Positions 2,552-25,096 of a DNA stretch of 31,036 nt are shown one piece after another. The stretch is taken from positions 1 through 31,036 of the IMG/VR virus record IMGVR_UViG_3300025771_003930. The stretch is one strand, 5' to 3'. A program made the translations under genes and the position numbers. Positions within the stretch are counted from its first letter, which is position 1; the number at the start of each line of letters is the position of its first letter. Below the pieces are notes generated by a model that searched no databases, was not told the origin of the DNA, and worked only from the letters and a program-made list of their open reading frames with translations. The stretch comes from a virus.

Positions 2552-5026
2552 ATGAGAAATCTCGTTGCAATGCTGCTGATGTTTTTAGCAGTAGGAGCTT
2601 ATGCTCAAGAAACCGGTACAGAATCTAAAACGATTCTTACCACAAATCTTGAAGAGGTAGTAGTATCATCTCGTGTAATTGATGTCGCAAAAGAAAGAGA
2701 GACACCGATTGCCGTAAGTACTATTTCTGCTCAAGAAGTTTTGCTTAAAGTAGGAAATCAAGAATTTCCTGAAATCATGAACAAAACACCAGGGGTTTAT
2801 GCTACAAAACAAGGAGGAGGATACGGAGATTCTCGTATCTCACTTCGTGGATTTGATCAGCGTAATACTTCATTCCTTATTAACGGACAGCCAGTCAATG
2901 ATATGGAAAACGGATGGGTGTATTGGTCAAACTGGCAAGGTCTGACAGACGTTACGTCTAACATTCAGATACAACGTGGACTTGGTGCCACATCTCTAGC
3001 AGTTCCTTCAGTCGGTGGAACTGTTTCTATTTTTACTAAAAGTGCTGAAAAAGCCGAAGGTGGTTCTCTAACTCAGATGGTAGGGAATAATGGCTATATC
3101 AAAACTACTGCAGTTTATAATACTGGAGTAAATGATAAAGGATGGTCATCTTCTTTCCTACTAACTAAATGGTCTGGTAACGGATACATTTATAATACGT
3201 CCGGAGCAGGTTGGACATATTTCGGAGCAGTAGGGTACACACCAGAGGGTTCAGCGCATAGTCTGAACCTTTCCTTTTTAGGAGCAGGTCAATGGCATCA
3301 CCAAAGAGATGTTTGGGTATCTATTAGAGATTACCAAAACTTTGGAGAGGATGGAATCGATCGTCGTTGGAATACCAACGGTGGTACATTAAACGGAGAG
3401 GAATTTAACTTACGTAGAAACTTCTACAACAAACCTCTTGCTACATTAAACTGGGATTGGGATATTTCAGATAACGTACAGTTAAACACATCTATTTACG
3501 GTTCAGCCGGTAGAGGTGGAGGAACAGGTCCTCGTGGTAGAAACTACTACAATGCCGGAATCGATATTCTACCTTTTCAAAAAGATCTAACTACACATTA
3601 TCTTGAAGATGGAAGAGGAACTCGTGACGCTCAGGGATTTATCAACTATGATGCTATCGTAGCTCATAACTCTCAGTATTCTATTGGTTCAAATAACGAT
3701 AGAGACTATGCTAGAGACATTTTAGTACGTAGAGCATCTATGAACTCTCATAACTGGATTGGAGCTATATCTAAATTAAACATCCAGAAAGGTAAAATGA
3801 GATATTCATTAGGAGTTGATTTAAGAGACTATACTGGATATCACTACAGAGCATTAGAAAACCTAATGGGTCTTCAGCAATATGCTTCTACTGGAAATGA
3901 CAACTTAGGAACTCAACTTTACGGTTCAAATGATTTAGTAGTTGCTAAGCCATTCCAAGGTACTAACATTGGAGATGACGAAGCTAAAATTGACTATTAT
4001 AATATTGGATTTGTAAAATGGGCCGGATTCAACGGATTAGTTGAGTATGCAGGAGACGATATTACTGCTGTAGTTCAAGTAGGTTTATCTAACCAACAAT
4101 TCCAACGTGAAGACAGATTTAATAACACAGACAATCCTATTTCAGACAAAGCTAACTTAGGTGGTGGATATCTTAAAGGAGGTATCAACTATAACTTTAC
4201 TGAAAAATCTAACGTATTTGTAAATGCTGGATTTATTGATCGTCAACCATTATTTGATGCTGTATTCCCTAATTTTGGAAATGATATCAACGACGACCTA
4301 CAAAATGAGCGTATTGAATCAGTTGAGATTGGATATGGATATGTAGGTAACGGATTAAAGTTTAATATTAACGCCTACTCAACTAACTGGGGTAATAGAT
4401 TTGTATCTCGTAGTTTATCTAACCAGCAAGGTATTGACGGAACAGCTCAGTTTAGAAATATCGATGTAACTCATAAAGGTATTGAATTTGAAGGTACTTA
4501 CACTTTTGGTGCTACTAAACTCAGAGGTATGTTATCAGTCGGAGATTGGAGATATACTAAAGATTTCGAGGCAGAGTTATTTGATGATAACCAACAATCA
4601 GTAGGTACAGGTAAACTATATCTAGAAGGTGCTAAAGTAGGTGATGCAGCACAAACAACAGCATTACTCGGTATTGATCAAAAATTTGGATCTAATTTTA
4701 GAATTGATTTAGATTATAGATTTGTTGATGATCTGTATGCAGATTACAGCATTACAGATTCTGCTTTTACTCAACCAGATAATGATGGAGCGTTAAAACT
4801 ACCTTCATTTGGTTTAGTTGATTTTGGAGCTACATTCTATACTAATAGCGGATGGAGTTTAAGAGCGAACGTAAATAACTTATTAGACACAACGTATATT
4901 GCTGAGTCTAATAGTAACATTCACGCTACTGCAAGTTCACAAACTTGGAATGGTGTAGATGTAAGAAACTCAGTCTGGTTCGGTTTTGGCCGTACTTGGA
5001 ACGTTTCACTAAAATATAAATTTTAG
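2552..5026 (+). CDS. TonB-dependent outer-membrane receptor
   Basis: This 824-residue protein has a cleavable signal peptide (about residues 1-18, ending AYAQ), a TonB-box-like EEVVVSS stretch near 34-40, a plug domain at about 40-165 (ISLRGFDQRNTSFLINGQPV, then VPSVGGTVSIF), and a long beta-barrel ending in an aromatic residue (NVSLKYKF), the usual signal for outer-membrane insertion. It lacks the N-terminal carboxypeptidase-like domain common in SusC proteins and looks more like a siderophore or metal receptor. The substrate cannot be told from sequence. Such receptors import iron chelates, vitamins or glycans with energy from TonB-ExbBD, which would have to come from the host. Finding one amid phage-like genes is unusual. 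A terminator follows immediately. Confidence 0.93.
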   Translation: MRNLVAMLLMFLAVGAYAQETGTESKTILTTNLEEVVVSSRVIDVAKERETPIAVSTISAQEVLLKVGNQEFPEIMNKTPGVYATKQGGGYGDSRISLRGFDQRNTSFLINGQPVNDMENGWVYWSNWQGLTDVTSNIQIQRGLGATSLAVPSVGGTVSIFTKSAEKAEGGSLTQMVGNNGYIKTTAVYNTGVNDKGWSSSFLLTKWSGNGYIYNTSGAGWTYFGAVGYTPEGSAHSLNLSFLGAGQWHHQRDVWVSIRDYQNFGEDGIDRRWNTNGGTLNGEEFNLRRNFYNKPLATLNWDWDISDNVQLNTSIYGSAGRGGGTGPRGRNYYNAGIDILPFQKDLTTHYLEDGRGTRDAQGFINYDAIVAHNSQYSIGSNNDRDYARDILVRRASMNSHNWIGAISKLNIQKGKMRYSLGVDLRDYTGYHYRALENLMGLQQYASTGNDNLGTQLYGSNDLVVAKPFQGTNIGDDEAKIDYYNIGFVKWAGFNGLVEYAGDDITAVVQVGLSNQQFQREDRFNNTDNPISDKANLGGGYLKGGINYNFTEKSNVFVNAGFIDRQPLFDAVFPNFGNDINDDLQNERIESVEIGYGYVGNGLKFNINAYSTNWGNRFVSRSLSNQQGIDGTAQFRNIDVTHKGIEFEGTYTFGATKLRGMLSVGDWRYTKDFEAELFDDNQQSVGTGKLYLEGAKVGDAAQTTALLGIDQKFGSNFRIDLDYRFVDDLYADYSITDSAFTQPDNDGALKLPSFGLVDFGATFYTNSGWSLRANVNNLLDTTYIAESNSNIHATASSQTWNGVDVRNSVWFGFGRTWNVSLKYKF

Positions 5027-5083: not shown

Positions 5084-5896
5084 ATGAAAACGTTATATAC
5101 TTTACTAAAGATTTATTTGTTTCCAATATTACTTTTGATACTTTTATTAGGAGCAGGAACTGCATTATTTGCAAACGATTGGGGTAAGACAGGACATAGA
5201 GTAGTAGGTGAGATTGCTGAAAGACAATTAACCGATGAAGTTAAAGAGATAGTATATGAAATACTAGATGGAGAATCTCTATCATCAGTCTCTACTTGGG
5301 CAGATGAAATGAGAAGCAATCCAGACTTTGATAAATTTAGTCATTGGCATTATGTTAATCTACCATTAGATAAGGAATACACTGAGATGGAACATACAAA
5401 AGCTAATGTAGTAAATATTATTGAAAGATGTATATTAGTACTTAAATCACCTAGTTCTGACAAGGAAATGAAAAGGTTTTACCTTAAGTACTTAGTACAT
5501 TTAGTTGGTGATTTACATCAACCAATGCACACTGGGAGATACGAGGATTATGGTGGTAGTAAAATACGGTTAAAGTTTAAAGGTAGAAAAGGTTCTGAAA
5601 CTAACACTAATCTACACGTATTATGGGATTCTAATCTTATAGATGATTTTAAGATGTCATTCACAGAATGGTCAAATCATTTAGAAAATAAATTTCGTAA
5701 AAAAGAGGTAAAACAGAGTAACGTTTTAGAATGGACTTTTGAATCACACTGGTGGGCAAGAGACATTTACAAAAATACTAAAGAAGGAGATTACCTTTCT
5801 TATGACTACGTTTACAAGTATCAACCGGTACTTGAAAAAAGGTTATATCAGGCAGGTAAAAGATTAGGTAACTTATTAAACGAAATATTCGGATGA
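5084..5896 (+). CDS. Exported S1/P1-type zinc nuclease
   Basis: This 270-residue protein has a hydrophobic N-terminal signal (residues 8-30) followed by DWGKTGHRVVGEIAE, the start of a mature S1/P1 nuclease, whose N-terminal Trp and nearby His bind zinc. Further zinc ligands are visible in STWADE, HWHYVN, HLVGDLHQPMH and HVLWDSNLI, so the trinuclear zinc site looks intact. The family cleaves single-stranded DNA and RNA and releases 5'-nucleotides, here in the periplasm or outside the cell. It is the second exported nuclease flanking the receptor. TATATTAA at 5072-5079, 4 bases before the ATG, may be a promoter -7 box, but no clear -33 element exists because the terminator occupies that place. 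Confidence 0.92.
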   Translation: MKTLYTLLKIYLFPILLLILLLGAGTALFANDWGKTGHRVVGEIAERQLTDEVKEIVYEILDGESLSSVSTWADEMRSNPDFDKFSHWHYVNLPLDKEYTEMEHTKANVVNIIERCILVLKSPSSDKEMKRFYLKYLVHLVGDLHQPMHTGRYEDYGGSKIRLKFKGRKGSETNTNLHVLWDSNLIDDFKMSFTEWSNHLENKFRKKEVKQSNVLEWTFESHWWARDIYKNTKEGDYLSYDYVYKYQPVLEKRLYQAGKRLGNLLNEIFG

Positions 5897-11628: not shown

Positions 11629-12531
11629 ATGAGTGAAGTTAAAAATTATGAAGCAGTAAAAGAAATAGCTGCAAAACATTTAGGTAAAGTTGGCGGTGAC
11701 GGATACTCCGACCAGTATAGCCCTGAACTACTAGTTAAAATACCCCGTTACCTTAACCGAGAAGGTTATAATTTAACTGGAGCAGAATTTAAAGGGGTTG
11801 ATGTATGGAATGCATACGAAGTATCTGCAATTACGACTAAAGGTCAACCTGTTGCCGGAATGCTTAAAATAGTATGCCCATCAGATAGTGAAAATCACGT
11901 AGAATCTAAATCTATAAAGTTATACTTAAATTCTTTTAATATGACTCAAATAGGTGATAATGCTGCTGATTGTATTTCCGGTATTGAAGCAAGAGTTAAA
12001 AGAGATTTAGATGAACTTTTAGATACTAATACTACAGTTACGTTTTTTGCTTCTGAATTTGAAACTGAACCTTTATCTTTCTCAGATGAATATCAGGATA
12101 TAGCAGATATTGCTAAATTAGACGATATAGATTTTACAGCTTTTAAATCAGATGCAGATCAATTAGAAACTGGGGAAGGAGAAGAACTAAAGGTTAGGTC
12201 TAATTTATTGAGATCGAATTGTAGAGTAACTAACCAACCAGATTGGGGTGATGTTTTTATTTATATTAAAGGAGAAAAAGTCCCATCTGCTGAATCGTTG
12301 GCTAAATATATTGTTAGTCATAGAACAGTTAGTCACTTTCATGAAGAGATATGTGAGATGATATTTGCTCATTTAACTGAAAGATTTAAACCAGAACATT
12401 TGATGGTATCATGTTTATATACTAGAAGAGGGGGTATTGATATTAATCCTATTAGAGCAACTCATAAAATGCTTATACCAGATTTCTTTACCAACCCTAA
12501 TTACACAATTCGAAAAACGTTAAGACAGTAG
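11629..12531 (+). CDS. queF: NADPH-dependent 7-cyano-7-deazaguanine reductase, two-domain type
   Basis: This 300-residue protein shows the QueF nitrile-reductase signature. The NADPH-binding motif ESKSIKLYLNSFN is at 92-104. The catalytic segment RSNCRVTNQPDWGD has nucleophile Cys198 and a conserved Asp205. HFHEEICEMIF (His238, Glu239) binds substrate. Length and order match the long E. coli-type enzyme (282 residues). All key residues are present, so it should be active. It reduces preQ0 to preQ1 with two NADPH. Together with the DpdA-like enzyme this points to preQ1 or a derivative as the base placed in DNA. Confidence 0.95.
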   Translation: MSEVKNYEAVKEIAAKHLGKVGGDGYSDQYSPELLVKIPRYLNREGYNLTGAEFKGVDVWNAYEVSAITTKGQPVAGMLKIVCPSDSENHVESKSIKLYLNSFNMTQIGDNAADCISGIEARVKRDLDELLDTNTTVTFFASEFETEPLSFSDEYQDIADIAKLDDIDFTAFKSDADQLETGEGEELKVRSNLLRSNCRVTNQPDWGDVFIYIKGEKVPSAESLAKYIVSHRTVSHFHEEICEMIFAHLTERFKPEHLMVSCLYTRRGGIDINPIRATHKMLIPDFFTNPNYTIRKTLRQ

Positions 12532-21253: not shown

Positions 21254-22534
21254 ATGGAACTTTTTAAAGCTGATGATAAAGAATATTTGGTAGTTAAATT
21301 TCCTCCGGAATATTACGTTTTAATTAACCTTTATAAGACAGGTAAATACAAACCACAATTTGCAGATACTGAAGGGCTTGAATATTTAAAAACTAATACA
21401 GACTGTGGATTACTTCTTGTAGAAGAAGGAGAAGTAGCAGAAATATTTCGCACAGTACTGTTTCTTGAATTAGAAAAGTTTATCACTAGTAATAAATTAC
21501 AAAATCATGTTTATTTATTTTTTCAAGGAACAGGTCAAGAAACTTTTATAGATGACTACATTAAAAACGTTCCTAAATACGTAACTTTAATACAAAGTCA
21601 CTCAGCAGCATATAATTTTATACACCATTGGAATCAATTTTATTCACCAGCAAGAATAAAATTAAGTGAAACAATACACAACTATACCGAAAAATACGCA
21701 TTTAATAAGTTAAGTTTAGAAAAAAGATTTTTAGTTTATTCAGGGAAAACAAAAAACTATAGAATGTTACTTCTGAATGAACTAATTGAATCTAAACTAT
21801 TAGACCAATGCTATTATAACTTTGGTGAAGAAACACCCAAGAGGTTTTTAAGGTATGTCACTAGTGATTACTATAAGGAGATTTACAAAAATGCAACACC
21901 GTCTGATTTAAGACTAGGTACATTATCTCCTCCCCCTATAATGACTCTTACAAAAAAGGATAATGAGATAATACAAAAGTTACTTCCAAAGTTACCAATG
22001 TACAATATACCAAACCGTGAATCTGACGACTACTACCTTGAACCATACTTTGCATTTCCAGATCATGAATTTTTTAGAAAAATATTTGTAGATATAACAG
22101 TTGAAACATACTGTTTTAGAGGATTGAGCTCTGACCCTCTTATTAGTAATATAAATTTTCATACAGAAAAGTTATTTAAACCTACCCTTACCCATAGACC
22201 TTTTATTGTGTTAGGAAATAAAAATTACCTAAAAGACCTAAAAAACGTATTTGGGTTCAAAACTTTTAACAAATTCTGGGATGAATCGTATGATGATGTT
22301 AATGATGCTAGAGTTGCTATAAAAATTATATTAGATAATTTAAAATATTTAAATTCTTTATCTTTACCTAGATTGGAAAATATGCTTTTTGATATGAAAG
22401 ATATACTAGTACATAACAACAGAGTTGCTTTAGACTACTTAAGTGGAGAAGAACCGTGGAAGCTTGTTATGCAAAATTTTCATAAAGGATTAGCTAAATC
22501 ATGGACAGGGTTAAAAGGAACAATTTTAATATAA
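21254..22534 (+). CDS. Putative glycosyltransferase-like protein, paralogue 2 of tandem pair
   Basis: This 426-residue protein starts one base after the preceding stop and is a diverged copy of it over the whole length. Shared segments include LxxEEGE near residue 55, NHVYxxxQGxGQExxID, the FHTEKLFKPTLTHRPF block, LKNVFGFKTFNKFWDESYDD, and a C-terminal W(T)G(T/L)KG. The two differ most between about 190 and 250. A tandem duplication followed by divergence suggests two transferases using different donors or acceptors, but the enzymatic activity is inferred only from weak motif likeness. Confidence 0.6.
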   Translation: MELFKADDKEYLVVKFPPEYYVLINLYKTGKYKPQFADTEGLEYLKTNTDCGLLLVEEGEVAEIFRTVLFLELEKFITSNKLQNHVYLFFQGTGQETFIDDYIKNVPKYVTLIQSHSAAYNFIHHWNQFYSPARIKLSETIHNYTEKYAFNKLSLEKRFLVYSGKTKNYRMLLLNELIESKLLDQCYYNFGEETPKRFLRYVTSDYYKEIYKNATPSDLRLGTLSPPPIMTLTKKDNEIIQKLLPKLPMYNIPNRESDDYYLEPYFAFPDHEFFRKIFVDITVETYCFRGLSSDPLISNINFHTEKLFKPTLTHRPFIVLGNKNYLKDLKNVFGFKTFNKFWDESYDDVNDARVAIKIILDNLKYLNSLSLPRLENMLFDMKDILVHNNRVALDYLSGEEPWKLVMQNFHKGLAKSWTGLKGTILI

Positions 22535-22537
22535 AAG

Positions 22538-22568
22538 TTGGTTTTTAATTCTAAAAGTTCTATATTTA
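22538..22568 (+). promoter_or_regulatory. Candidate hsp20 promoter
   Basis: TTG at 22538-22540 and TATATTTA at 22561-22568 are separated by 20 bases, the Bacteroidota -33/-7 layout. Transcription would start near 22575, leaving a leader of about 70 bases that holds one arm of an inverted repeat and a GACG/CGTC hairpin. Confidence 0.5.
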
Positions 22569-22579
22569 TAATAAATGAG

Positions 22580-22594
22580 AATCAACCCCAGAGA
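22580..22594 (+). repeat. Left arm of inverted repeat flanking hsp20
   Basis: AATCAACCCCAGAGA here matches the reverse complement of 23067-23082 (AATCAAACCCCAGAGA), with one base inserted. It lies just downstream of the candidate hsp20 promoter. It may be an operator, or pair in RNA with the right arm. Confidence 0.55.
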
Positions 22595-22609
22595 GATTTT
22601 TATTTTGTT

Positions 22610-22633
22610 TAACCGACGATCTTAGGACGTCAC
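22610..22633 (+). promoter_or_regulatory. Stem-loop motif in hsp20 leader
   Basis: TAACCGACGA followed by CGTCAC can fold with GACG (22615-22618) paired to CGTC (22628-22631). The same two blocks occur in the same order at 25301-25319. The hsp20 ATG is at 22648, 15 bases after it, so a heat- or regulator-sensitive leader is possible. Confidence 0.35.
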
Positions 22634-22647
22634 AAATTTTAAATGAT

Positions 22648-23058
22648 ATGAGTACATTATTTTATGAACGTAATCCGTTCGACATTTTAGTTAGAAATTT
22701 TTTCCAAGACGCCAGCCAATTTACTCCGCTGGCAGAAACCAAAGTTCCTCACCCAGTAGACATCTATACGACCGATACCCAATTGGTATTCGACATAGCG
22801 GCTACAGGAATCGCAAAAGAGGACTTAGAGATTCAAACCCAAAACAATACTCTTAGAGTTAATTACAACAAGGCTAAAGAAGAAACAGACGTTGACTATA
22901 TACATAAAGGAATAGCTAAACGTTCGTTTAATCTTGGCTGGAAAATTGATAGTAAGTTCGATTTAACTAAAGCAAATGCTAAGTTTGAAAATGGACTATT
23001 ATCAATTGCAATTCCTTTTGCTAAAGGGTCAGAGTTAAAAACTTTGAAAATTAGCTAA
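22648..23058 (+). CDS. Small heat shock protein, Hsp20/alpha-crystallin family
   Basis: This 136-residue protein has a short N-terminal arm (NPFDILVRNFF) and an alpha-crystallin domain at about 35-125 (HPVDIYTTDTQLVFDIAATG, then FENGLLSIAIPF). ANAKFENGLLSIAIP is the family's A-x-x-x-n-GxL signature. The C-terminal IxI-type tail (LKTLKIS) is reduced. It acts as an ATP-independent holdase. Hsp20 genes are also carried by large phages such as T4-like cyanophages. groES and groEL follow under a separate candidate promoter. Confidence 0.9.
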   Translation: MSTLFYERNPFDILVRNFFQDASQFTPLAETKVPHPVDIYTTDTQLVFDIAATGIAKEDLEIQTQNNTLRVNYNKAKEETDVDYIHKGIAKRSFNLGWKIDSKFDLTKANAKFENGLLSIAIPFAKGSELKTLKIS

Positions 23059-23066
23059 ATTTTTCT

Positions 23067-23082
23067 TCTCTGGGGTTTGATT
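23067..23082 (+). repeat. Right arm of inverted repeat flanking hsp20
   Basis: TCTCTGGGGTTTGATT is the reverse complement, with one inserted base, of 22580-22594. It overlaps the -33 TTTG of the candidate groES promoter, a natural place for a repressor or activator to bind. Confidence 0.55.
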
Positions 23083-23106
23083 TTCAATAGATAAATCATA
23101 TATTAA
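23076..23106 (+). promoter_or_regulatory. Candidate groES-groEL promoter
   Basis: TTTG at 23076-23079, a 19-base spacer and TATATTAA at 23099-23106 form a Bacteroidota-type promoter 18 bases before the groES ATG. The -33 box lies inside the right inverted-repeat arm. Confidence 0.55.
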
Positions 23107-23124: not shown

Positions 23125-23451
23125 ATGGCACAGAAGTTACAACCAACAAACGACCGTATATTAATTAAACCTATTGATGAAGGTGAACAAACATACGGAT
23201 CGATTGTAATCCCTGACATGGGTAAAGAAAGACCGGAAATGGGAGAAGTTATTGCTACCGGACCTGGTAGACTTTCAGAACATGGACAATTAATCACAGT
23301 ACGCTCTTGTAAAGTAGGAGATATAGTATTAGTTCCAAAAATTGGTACTTTAAGAATAGATTTTGAAGGTGAAGAATATTTTATAGCTCAAGACAGAGAA
23401 GTATTAGCTGTAGTAAAAGAATCAAAAAATTTAGATTTAGATTATGACTAA
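23125..23451 (+). CDS. groES: Co-chaperonin GroES
   Basis: This 108-residue protein has the GroES fold pattern: LQPTNDRILIKPID at the start, a mobile-loop region EQTYGSIVIPDMGKERPEMG, GEVIATGPGR, and VGDIVLVPKIGTLRIDFEGEEYFIAQDREVLAVV. It is slightly longer than the usual 95-97 residues because of a C-terminal acidic tail (NLDLDYD). It would cap the GroEL ring encoded next, which it overlaps by 8 bases. Confidence 0.93.
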   Translation: MAQKLQPTNDRILIKPIDEGEQTYGSIVIPDMGKERPEMGEVIATGPGRLSEHGQLITVRSCKVGDIVLVPKIGTLRIDFEGEEYFIAQDREVLAVVKESKNLDLDYD

Positions 23452-25096
23452 AAAGATTACATTTTCAAAAGACGCTAGAAACAAACTAGCAGACGGAGTC
23501 GATAAACTAGCTAATGCAGTTACGGCTACCCTCGGACCTTCCGGCCGAAACGTTATTATTGAACAGGAAATGGGCATGCCGGTATCAACTAAAGATGGTG
23601 TTACTGTAGCAAAGTCCATAGAGTTGAAAGACAAAGTAGAAAATTTAGGAGCTCAAATTGTAAAGCAAGCTTCTATTAAGACAGGAGAACAAGCAGGTGA
23701 CGGTACTACCACATCTACTCTACTTGCTCAATCCATCCTTACAGAAGGATTAGATAGAATGAAGCAAGGTTCTAATGCTGTCGATATAAAGAGAGGAATT
23801 GATGAGGCAGTAAAACACATCACTGGATACCTTTCTACAGAATCGAAAGACATCACGGATGAAGAACAGCTAAAACAGGTTGCCACTATTTCAGCTAATA
23901 ATGATACCGAAGTAGGTGAGTTAATTTCCACTGCCATGGATAAAGTAGGGCAGGATGGGGTGGTTACTATTGAAGAGTCAAAAACAGGAGAAACATATTT
24001 AGAAACGGTCGAAGGTATTCAGTTCGACAGAGGTTATAAGTCTCCATACTTCGTTACCGACAATAATTCGATGCAAGCTGTTCTTCAAGATCCGTTAATA
24101 TTAATTACCGACAAAGGACTAACACAAGTAAAAGAGTTGCTCCCTATTTTAGAAGGTGTCTCTAATCAGAACAAATCTCTATTAATAATTGCTGACAATA
24201 TCGGAGGAGAAGCTCTCTCTACTTTAGTAGTGAATAAAATGAGAGGAATACTAAACTGTGTTGCTGTACAAGCACCTGAGTTTGGGGATAGAAAAAAAGC
24301 TGTCTTAGAGGATATCGCTATATTGACAGGAGGTAAAGTAGTATCATCAGAAAAGGGTATGAGACTTGACAAGTTTGACCCTTCGTGGCTTGGTTCGGCT
24401 AACAAAGTTACCGTTGGTAAAGATACAACCACCATAATTGATGCAAAAGGTTCAGAAGAAGAAATTGAAAATAGAATAGATCAAATTAAAAAACAAATTG
24501 ATGATTCTAATTCTCCTTTTGAAAAAGAGACTCTACAAAGTAGGTTAGCTAAATTTGTAGGAGGAGTTGCTATCGTACATGTTGGTGGTCATACTGAAGT
24601 AGAAATGAAAGAGAAAAAAGACAGAGTTGATGATGCTTTACATGCAACCAAAGCTGCTATTGAAGAAGGAATTTTACCTGGAGGTGGAACTGCTTTACTA
24701 AGAGCTGCTCAATGGTTAACAGACACTCTAACTAATCCATTAGAAGAAGAAAAAGTAGAAGGAGACAAACTTACCGGTTATGATATCGTAATCAACGCTA
24801 TCGAACAACCATTCTACAAGATACTTCAGAATGCCGGATTAGATAATGATACTATAGGTGATATAGAAGAACGTATTAAGAATGAAGATGACTTTTGGTT
24901 TGGTTATAATCCAAGAGAAGAAGATTTCTTTAATATGTTTAAAGAGGGTATTATAGACCCAACTAAAGTAACAAGGCTTGCTTTAGAGAATGCTGCATCT
25001 GTTGCAGGAACTTTATTAATTACAGAAGCAGTAGTTAGTAAAGGTAAAGAGAAAAAGAATACAGCAGGAACAGATCCAAACATGCTGTTAGGTTAA
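23444..25096 (+). CDS. groEL: Chaperonin GroEL
   Basis: This 550-residue protein is a full-length chaperonin. The ATP site is intact: TLGPSGRNV, DGVTVAK (Asp51), GDGTTT (85-90), LPGGGTALLRAA. The apical and intermediate segments (KFVGGVAIVHVGGHTEVEMKEKKDRVDDALHATKAA) are conserved. The C-terminus ends KNTAGTDPNMLLG and lacks the Gly-Gly-Met repeats of most bacterial GroEL. The loop NEDDFWFGYNPREEDFFNMF is aromatic-rich. It forms the folding ring with GroES. Chaperonin genes are known but uncommon in phages and may serve to fold virion proteins. Confidence 0.95.
   Translation: MTKKITFSKDARNKLADGVDKLANAVTATLGPSGRNVIIEQEMGMPVSTKDGVTVAKSIELKDKVENLGAQIVKQASIKTGEQAGDGTTTSTLLAQSILTEGLDRMKQGSNAVDIKRGIDEAVKHITGYLSTESKDITDEEQLKQVATISANNDTEVGELISTAMDKVGQDGVVTIEESKTGETYLETVEGIQFDRGYKSPYFVTDNNSMQAVLQDPLILITDKGLTQVKELLPILEGVSNQNKSLLIIADNIGGEALSTLVVNKMRGILNCVAVQAPEFGDRKKAVLEDIAILTGGKVVSSEKGMRLDKFDPSWLGSANKVTVGKDTTTIIDAKGSEEEIENRIDQIKKQIDDSNSPFEKETLQSRLAKFVGGVAIVHVGGHTEVEMKEKKDRVDDALHATKAAIEEGILPGGGTALLRAAQWLTDTLTNPLEEEKVEGDKLTGYDIVINAIEQPFYKILQNAGLDNDTIGDIEERIKNEDDFWFGYNPREEDFFNMFKEGIIDPTKVTRLALENAASVAGTLLITEAVVSKGKEKKNTAGTDPNMLLG

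Follow-up and report, generated by a model that had tools for sequence, protein, structure and literature searches.

The hsp20 locus and its inverted repeat

The window analysed here is a stretch of 31,036 bases from a viral record, in which hsp20, a gene for a small heat shock protein, is followed downstream by groES and groEL (Table 1). The GroEL/GroES region of the window has 68% DNA identity to Flavobacterium phage immuto, and the same phage contig carries genes for an S1/P1 nuclease (5084-5896), a 1-Cys peroxiredoxin (423-1058) and QueF (11629-12531). A 23-nt direct repeat (22476-22498 and 22898-22920, 87% identical) is translated as HKG(L/I)AK in hsp20 as well as in the upstream ORF.

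An inverted repeat around hsp20 had been noticed in the original prediction, and it is real: CCCCAGAGA has exactly two copies in the window, at 22586-22594 (plus strand) and 23067-23075 (minus strand), against a mean of 0.10 per window in dinucleotide shuffles. When up to two mismatches are allowed, the longer AATCAAACCCCAGAGA has a single reverse match in the window (23067-23082); the 5' copy of this 16-mer is short by one A. Transcribed into RNA, 22576-22595 can pair with 23066-23086 over 20 base pairs, leaving a single U bulged out at 23076. The energy of this duplex is -31.8 kcal/mol (z = -7.3, hsp20 leader against the 45 nt past the stop codon), and the same pairing test, applied to 38 ORFs, gave no z below -1.8 for the other ORFs of the window. 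The RNA from 22576 to 23090 is 5.4 s.d. more stable than shuffles, and in its minimum free energy (MFE) fold the arms form the outermost helix, a panhandle.

Table 1 Features of the hsp20 locus in the window
Feature	Position	Strand	Basis
Promoter-like box TATTTATAATAAA, putatively for the hsp20 transcript	22563-22575	+	TATNTATAATA matches in relatives
Local hairpin H1, stem 22573-22583 / 22595-22605, arm core in loop	22573-22605	+	Local folding
Panhandle 5' arm in the hsp20 5' UTR, outer TGAGAATCAA, inner CCCCAGAGAG	22576-22595	+	Full-length MFE fold, covariation
Hairpin H2: GACG, bulged A (22619), TC, loop TTAG, GA, CGTC	22615-22631	+	Covariation
Minimal ORF ATG-ATA-TGA (two codons), overlapping the hsp20 start codon	22643-22651	+	Kept in 91/99 loci
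hsp20 (small heat shock protein, 136 aa)	22648-23058	+	PHROG 432, E = 1.1e-19; Pfam PF00011, E = 1.9e-12
Panhandle 3' arm: TTCTCTGGGG, bulged T 23076, TTGATTTTCA; begins 8 nt past the hsp20 stop codon	23066-23086	+	Sequence, fold, covariation
Candidate groES promoter: TTTG 23076-23079, 19 nt, TATATT 23099-23104; overlaps 3' arm	23076-23104	+	Sequence
groES (23125-23451) and groEL (23444-25096), downstream neighbours	23125-25096	+	PHROG/Pfam profile matches

The 3' arm had also been proposed to cover a groES promoter box. The TTTG does lie 19 nt upstream of TATATT in the window, in a candidate promoter recognised by its consensus, but relatives have not kept the TTTG, and we regard the overlap as incidental to the RNA element. 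AAACNGTTAT, a motif found before downstream genes, has 26 matches in the window against 19 expected and was set aside. As a promoter used throughout the window, TATNTATAATAAA was a weak candidate (6 matches against 2.3 expected) and was rejected. No terminator was seen between hsp20 and groES, so that the panhandle helix may sit away from the true 3' end of the mRNA.

Covariation of the arms

The original prediction had staked itself on the arms recurring at the same gene in relatives, and they are present at all 99 distinct hsp20 loci of our comparative sample, which comes from viral contigs. Scans for relatives of GroEL and of hsp20 covered 80 loci each. The 48 best hsp20 loci gave 34 distinct full pairs of leader and 3' sequence after duplicates and one locus with its upstream end missing (L109) were dropped; a partial gene (L131) was also excluded. 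A covariance model of H2 run on the GroEL loci gave 35 matches and 17 new loci, and a scan with a diverged hsp20 as query gave 80 loci, of which 48 were added after the removal of five without flanks, one whose match starts at residue 4 (L237) and duplicates.

The arms differ widely between loci (for example, CCCCAGAG, CTCGAGAG, ACCCTAGAGC, CTCTAGGGCGA, GCTAGGGCAC and ACTTGAGAGCG), and still each 3' arm matches its own 5' arm. Across the 99 loci there are 30 different 5' and 36 different 3' arm cores, in 48 distinct core pairs. Two-sided changes occur among these pairs at 10 of the 12 core positions, the other two being invariant. Two-sided cells number 104 against 35.5 in shuffles, with none of 500 shuffles as high; anchoring the core at the best-pairing register biases such pair counts upward. 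Slid registers gave 6-23 two-sided cells. Parsimony on a rough FastTree tree of hsp20, with recombination treated as substitution, yields approximately 83 two-sided compensatory steps over 97 of the 99 loci; the two mis-anchored loci left out of this count (L032 and L080) enter the core-pair covariation counts as anchored.

Each arm also prefers its own partner. The pairing energy averages -29.5 kcal/mol for own arms against -17.7 kcal/mol for swapped arms (n = 34), and own-arm pairing ranks between 1 and 9 of 34, not always first because relatives have arms in common. The pairing z over the 99 loci has a mean of -6.1 and lies below -4 in 96, the weakest pairers being L089 (-3.6) and L193 and L203 (both about -4.0). 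The full-length RNA is predicted to fold as a panhandle at every one of the 99 loci, and the ensemble probability of the panhandle exceeds 0.9 in 97 and 0.5 in all 99.

Pairing is stronger in plus-strand RNA (-30.5 kcal/mol) than in minus-strand RNA (-26.8 kcal/mol; n = 51). The difference of -3.67 compares with -1.74 (s.d. 0.42) in shuffles; about half of it is compositional. At the inner nine core positions, G-U combinations outnumber A-C combinations 16 to 6 (48 haplotypes), whereas over all 12 positions an earlier set of 23 haplotypes had 14 of each, an equality that arises because the end positions dominate.

By comparison of sequences, the compensatory changes on both sides support the view that arm complementarity is conserved by selection in related marine phages. 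The option offered beside protein binding, that RNA pairs over a long range across the hsp20 transcript, thus gains strong support from the covariation, the predicted panhandles at all 99 loci and the plus-strand bias. As far as the pairing alone is concerned, we are nearly certain that the two arms pair with each other as a long-range RNA helix. It is likely that this panhandle joins the 5' UTR to the sequence past the stop codon as a functional element, enclosing the whole hsp20 coding region.

Distribution of the pairing

With a cut at z < -3.5, the pairing is specific to hsp20: among 274 ORFs at 25 loci, every hsp20 gene (25 of 25) passes, and one of the 249 others does. It is absent from the 51 cellular hsp20 genes tested (of 54 loci). 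A host or prophage copy of the element was likewise rejected: a scan of cellular genome contigs with the hsp20 of L080 turned up nothing but distant cellular genes (21-45% identity). It is also absent from 29 of 30 distant phage hsp20 genes (31 loci, of which L153 was too short). Among isolated phages, 302 records match the window hsp20, and none of the four isolates tested has the element (z from -1.3 to 0.0); the hsp20 of the L041 type matches only HTVC008M among isolates, under two accessions.

The exception among the distant phage genes, L159, carries a 13-bp pair of its own, set in an unrelated context. The same locus appears as L163, in which the leader and 3' strands are GCCCGGATGCCTAC and GTAGGCATTCGGG (L163:2810-2824 and 3324-3336). 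This hsp20 belongs to an unrelated clade (33% identity) and has a Shine-Dalgarno-like leader. No relatives of the pair were found, and it is possibly a separate origin of the same architecture.

The arms follow hsp20 and not groES. By loose k-mer grouping of the gene after hsp20 at the 99 loci, groES stands there in 30, one other gene group in 61 and others in 8, which speaks against the suggestion that the repeat controls hsp20 and groESL jointly. The small gene of one loose group that replaces groES in 61 of the 99 relatives (for example, L095) begins with M..(K)GRPxGxxKxTFI in several members.

Leader elements

A box resembling TATNTATAATA lies 4-16 nt upstream of the arm core in 97 of the 99 loci, and matches at 10 or more of its 11 positions occur in 76 of 99 loci against 2 of 99 shuffled ones. 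Because the box sits just upstream, the hsp20 mRNA probably starts at the outer strand of the 5' arm. The 5' core lies inside the local hairpin H1 in 98 of 99 loci, with an energy z that averages only -1.27. H1 and the full panhandle are mutually exclusive, and local folding suggests that the H1 loop may nucleate the long-range pairing.

Between the 5' arm and the gene lies a second hairpin, H2, which ends 16 nt before the hsp20 AUG. At each of the 99 loci an A is bulged and the stems, of 12 types, pair fully, with two pairs above the bulged A and a loop of 3-4 nt (3 nt in 2 of 99); among the 13 loop sequences many are UNCG, and UUAG, UUCG and UACG are the chief ones. In 29 sequences, 95.2% of H2 cells are paired, 38 changes are two-sided and the covariation score is 0.58 against 0.13 in shuffles. 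An H2 model (R1) has a strong match in 20 of 23 whole viral records, 19 of them single-copy, and three records that had been retrieved through groEL lack a strong match (the best E values are 0.87 and 0.92, and the third has no match at all). Strong matches within loci sit at the hsp20 start. The record with two copies, G012 (167,696 bases, the record behind L128), has H2 matches of identical score at 2393-2440 and 167628-167675, which suggests that the genome is complete or circular, with repeated ends.

The coat-protein operator of MS2 has a tetraloop with an A bulged out two base pairs beneath it, and covers the start codon; operator loops of this type read ANYA, with the A last. H2 resembles it in its stem, bulged A and two upper pairs at 99 of 99 loci, near the start codon, although two of the loops have three nucleotides. 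The loops differ, however (UUAG, UNCG and others in place of ANYA), and H2 stands before the AUG, not over the start. We know of no coat-protein relative for H2 and, because its loop sequence is unlike that of MS2, we do not claim membership of that class. Most probably, H2 is bound by a protein that controls translation.

Relation to known systems

Searches of Rfam returned six matches in the window, all far below gathering scores and none at the element, and no match at gathering score in nine relatives. We found no published description of the hsp20 RNA element in searches of an open-licence paper library or in Rfam. Few bacterial mRNAs are documented to pair end to end: passages of a review name three messages and leave the generality of such pairing open (PMC7821165). 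What the 99 loci have in kind with hbs, icaR and RNAIII is selected complementarity between the 5' UTR and the 3' UTR of the same predicted mRNA.

One close likeness is the hbs mRNA of Bacillus subtilis, in which a short helix of 14 nt joins the 5' and 3' UTRs of one mRNA and is described as protection from RNase Y (Braun et al. 2017, via PMC7821165). The hbs case is 14 nt in one mRNA, whereas the phage hsp20 helix has 20 bp, covaries deeply and is accompanied by a second hairpin; protection would carry over only by analogy. RNAIII of Staphylococcus aureus is alike in that its ends pair over a long range and enclose a small coding region, but differs as a regulatory RNA with many trans targets and an unrelated sequence (PMC7821165). 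In icaR of S. aureus, a long 3' UTR pairs with the Shine-Dalgarno sequence and blocks translation, and the helix is a substrate of RNase III (PMC3868564). In hsp20, by contrast, the 5' arm core lies about 50 nt from the AUG, the start is not occluded and the 3' arm begins no more than about 25 nt past the stop codon in most loci. Nor is an icaR-type block, in which 3' UTR pairing hides the ribosome site, seen at the 99 loci, where the unpaired value of the start region is 0.617 with the 3' arm and 0.623 without it (a small shift towards closing, p = 0.008). We file the element as 5'-3' UTR pairing of a kind known before, which in these phage hsp20 genes covaries and is accompanied by a hairpin with a bulged A.

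Alternative explanations

The flanking stems of rRNA precursors are cut sites for RNase III. By the same analogy, the panhandle might be a site of processing or decay, at which the host RNase III cuts the helix and either excises hsp20 from longer transcripts or starts decay. A 20-bp helix around a gene that has no terminator before groES would suit such cleavage, as would the RNase III substrate created by 5'-3' pairing in icaR (PMC3868564). The helix nevertheless carries a bulge, and internal loops in other clades, and the box directly upstream suggests a promoter of its own, not excision from a read-through transcript. We consider RNase III-type cleavage unlikely, though far from negligible.

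A direct block of the ribosome site or an RNA thermometer, in which pairing hides the hsp20 start, is very unlikely. RNA thermometers often govern cellular hsp20 genes, but the start region here is almost as open with the 3' arm as without it, and neither it nor a Shine-Dalgarno sequence is sequestered in a meltable stem. No thermometer family scored above the Rfam gathering threshold, and, at about -30 kcal/mol, the helix would be too stable to melt near growth temperature.

The idea that one protein binds both arms as DNA, by looping or by governing the hsp20 and groES promoters together, drew on near-identical inverted 16-mers that adjoin two promoter-like sites in the window. It now has very little to recommend it. 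Such a protein would keep the sequence constant, with no need for the arms to stay complementary, which is the reverse of what is seen: the arms drift through 48 distinct core pairs at the 99 loci, and no binding sequence is conserved in both arms, as it would be in an operator pair of the CIRCE kind. The arms also persist at the 69 of 99 loci in which the downstream gene is not groES, the overlap with TTTG is not conserved, and the pairing is strand-biased. We give equally little credence to an inverted repeat maintained at the DNA level (an invertible segment, cassette ends or correction by template switching): the arms do travel with hsp20 through 6 downstream and 11 upstream neighbour groups across the 99 loci, but the excess of G-U over A-C at the inner core and the better pairing of plus-strand RNA are unexpected under DNA identity, and the order arm, H2, gene, arm holds in 99 of 99 hsp20 copies. 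None of these copies is inverted between its arms, in a sample gathered by gene and then by its own flanks and so not aimed at inverted copies.

A model for hsp20 regulation

We return to the RNA panhandle. Because a direct block of the start is unlikely, an effect on stability or processing is the better guess, and by analogy with hbs and icaR the joined ends most likely control the lifetime or processing of hsp20 mRNA. In the model that we propose, the nascent 5' arm would be held in the loop of H1, the 3' arm would pair with this loop after the gene had been fully transcribed, and the resulting 20-bp helix would tie the ends of the mRNA together and set its lifetime or processing during infection. 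That the panhandle stabilises the message, as the analogy would have it, is plausible, although we stop a little short of expecting it.

A more speculative extension, which we hold to be improbable, is a two-part quality control shared by a large group of phages. The 5' arm would wait in its loop until the 3' arm was made, so that only complete hsp20 messages became end-joined and long-lived, and a protein, phage-encoded and perhaps Hsp20 itself, would read the bulged-A hairpin and set translation. If this were true, an end-joined mRNA architecture would have been selected across a whole phage gene family.

The same end-pairing architecture appears to have been selected across a large and diverse family of phage genes, in which the arms have changed together dozens of times, and the natural arm variants are ready-made arm-swap experiments. 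H2, a further RNA hairpin whose bulged A never varies, is likely to be a site for a protein. The element suggests regulation of the phage small heat shock protein at the level of RNA, rather than through a shared chaperone operator.
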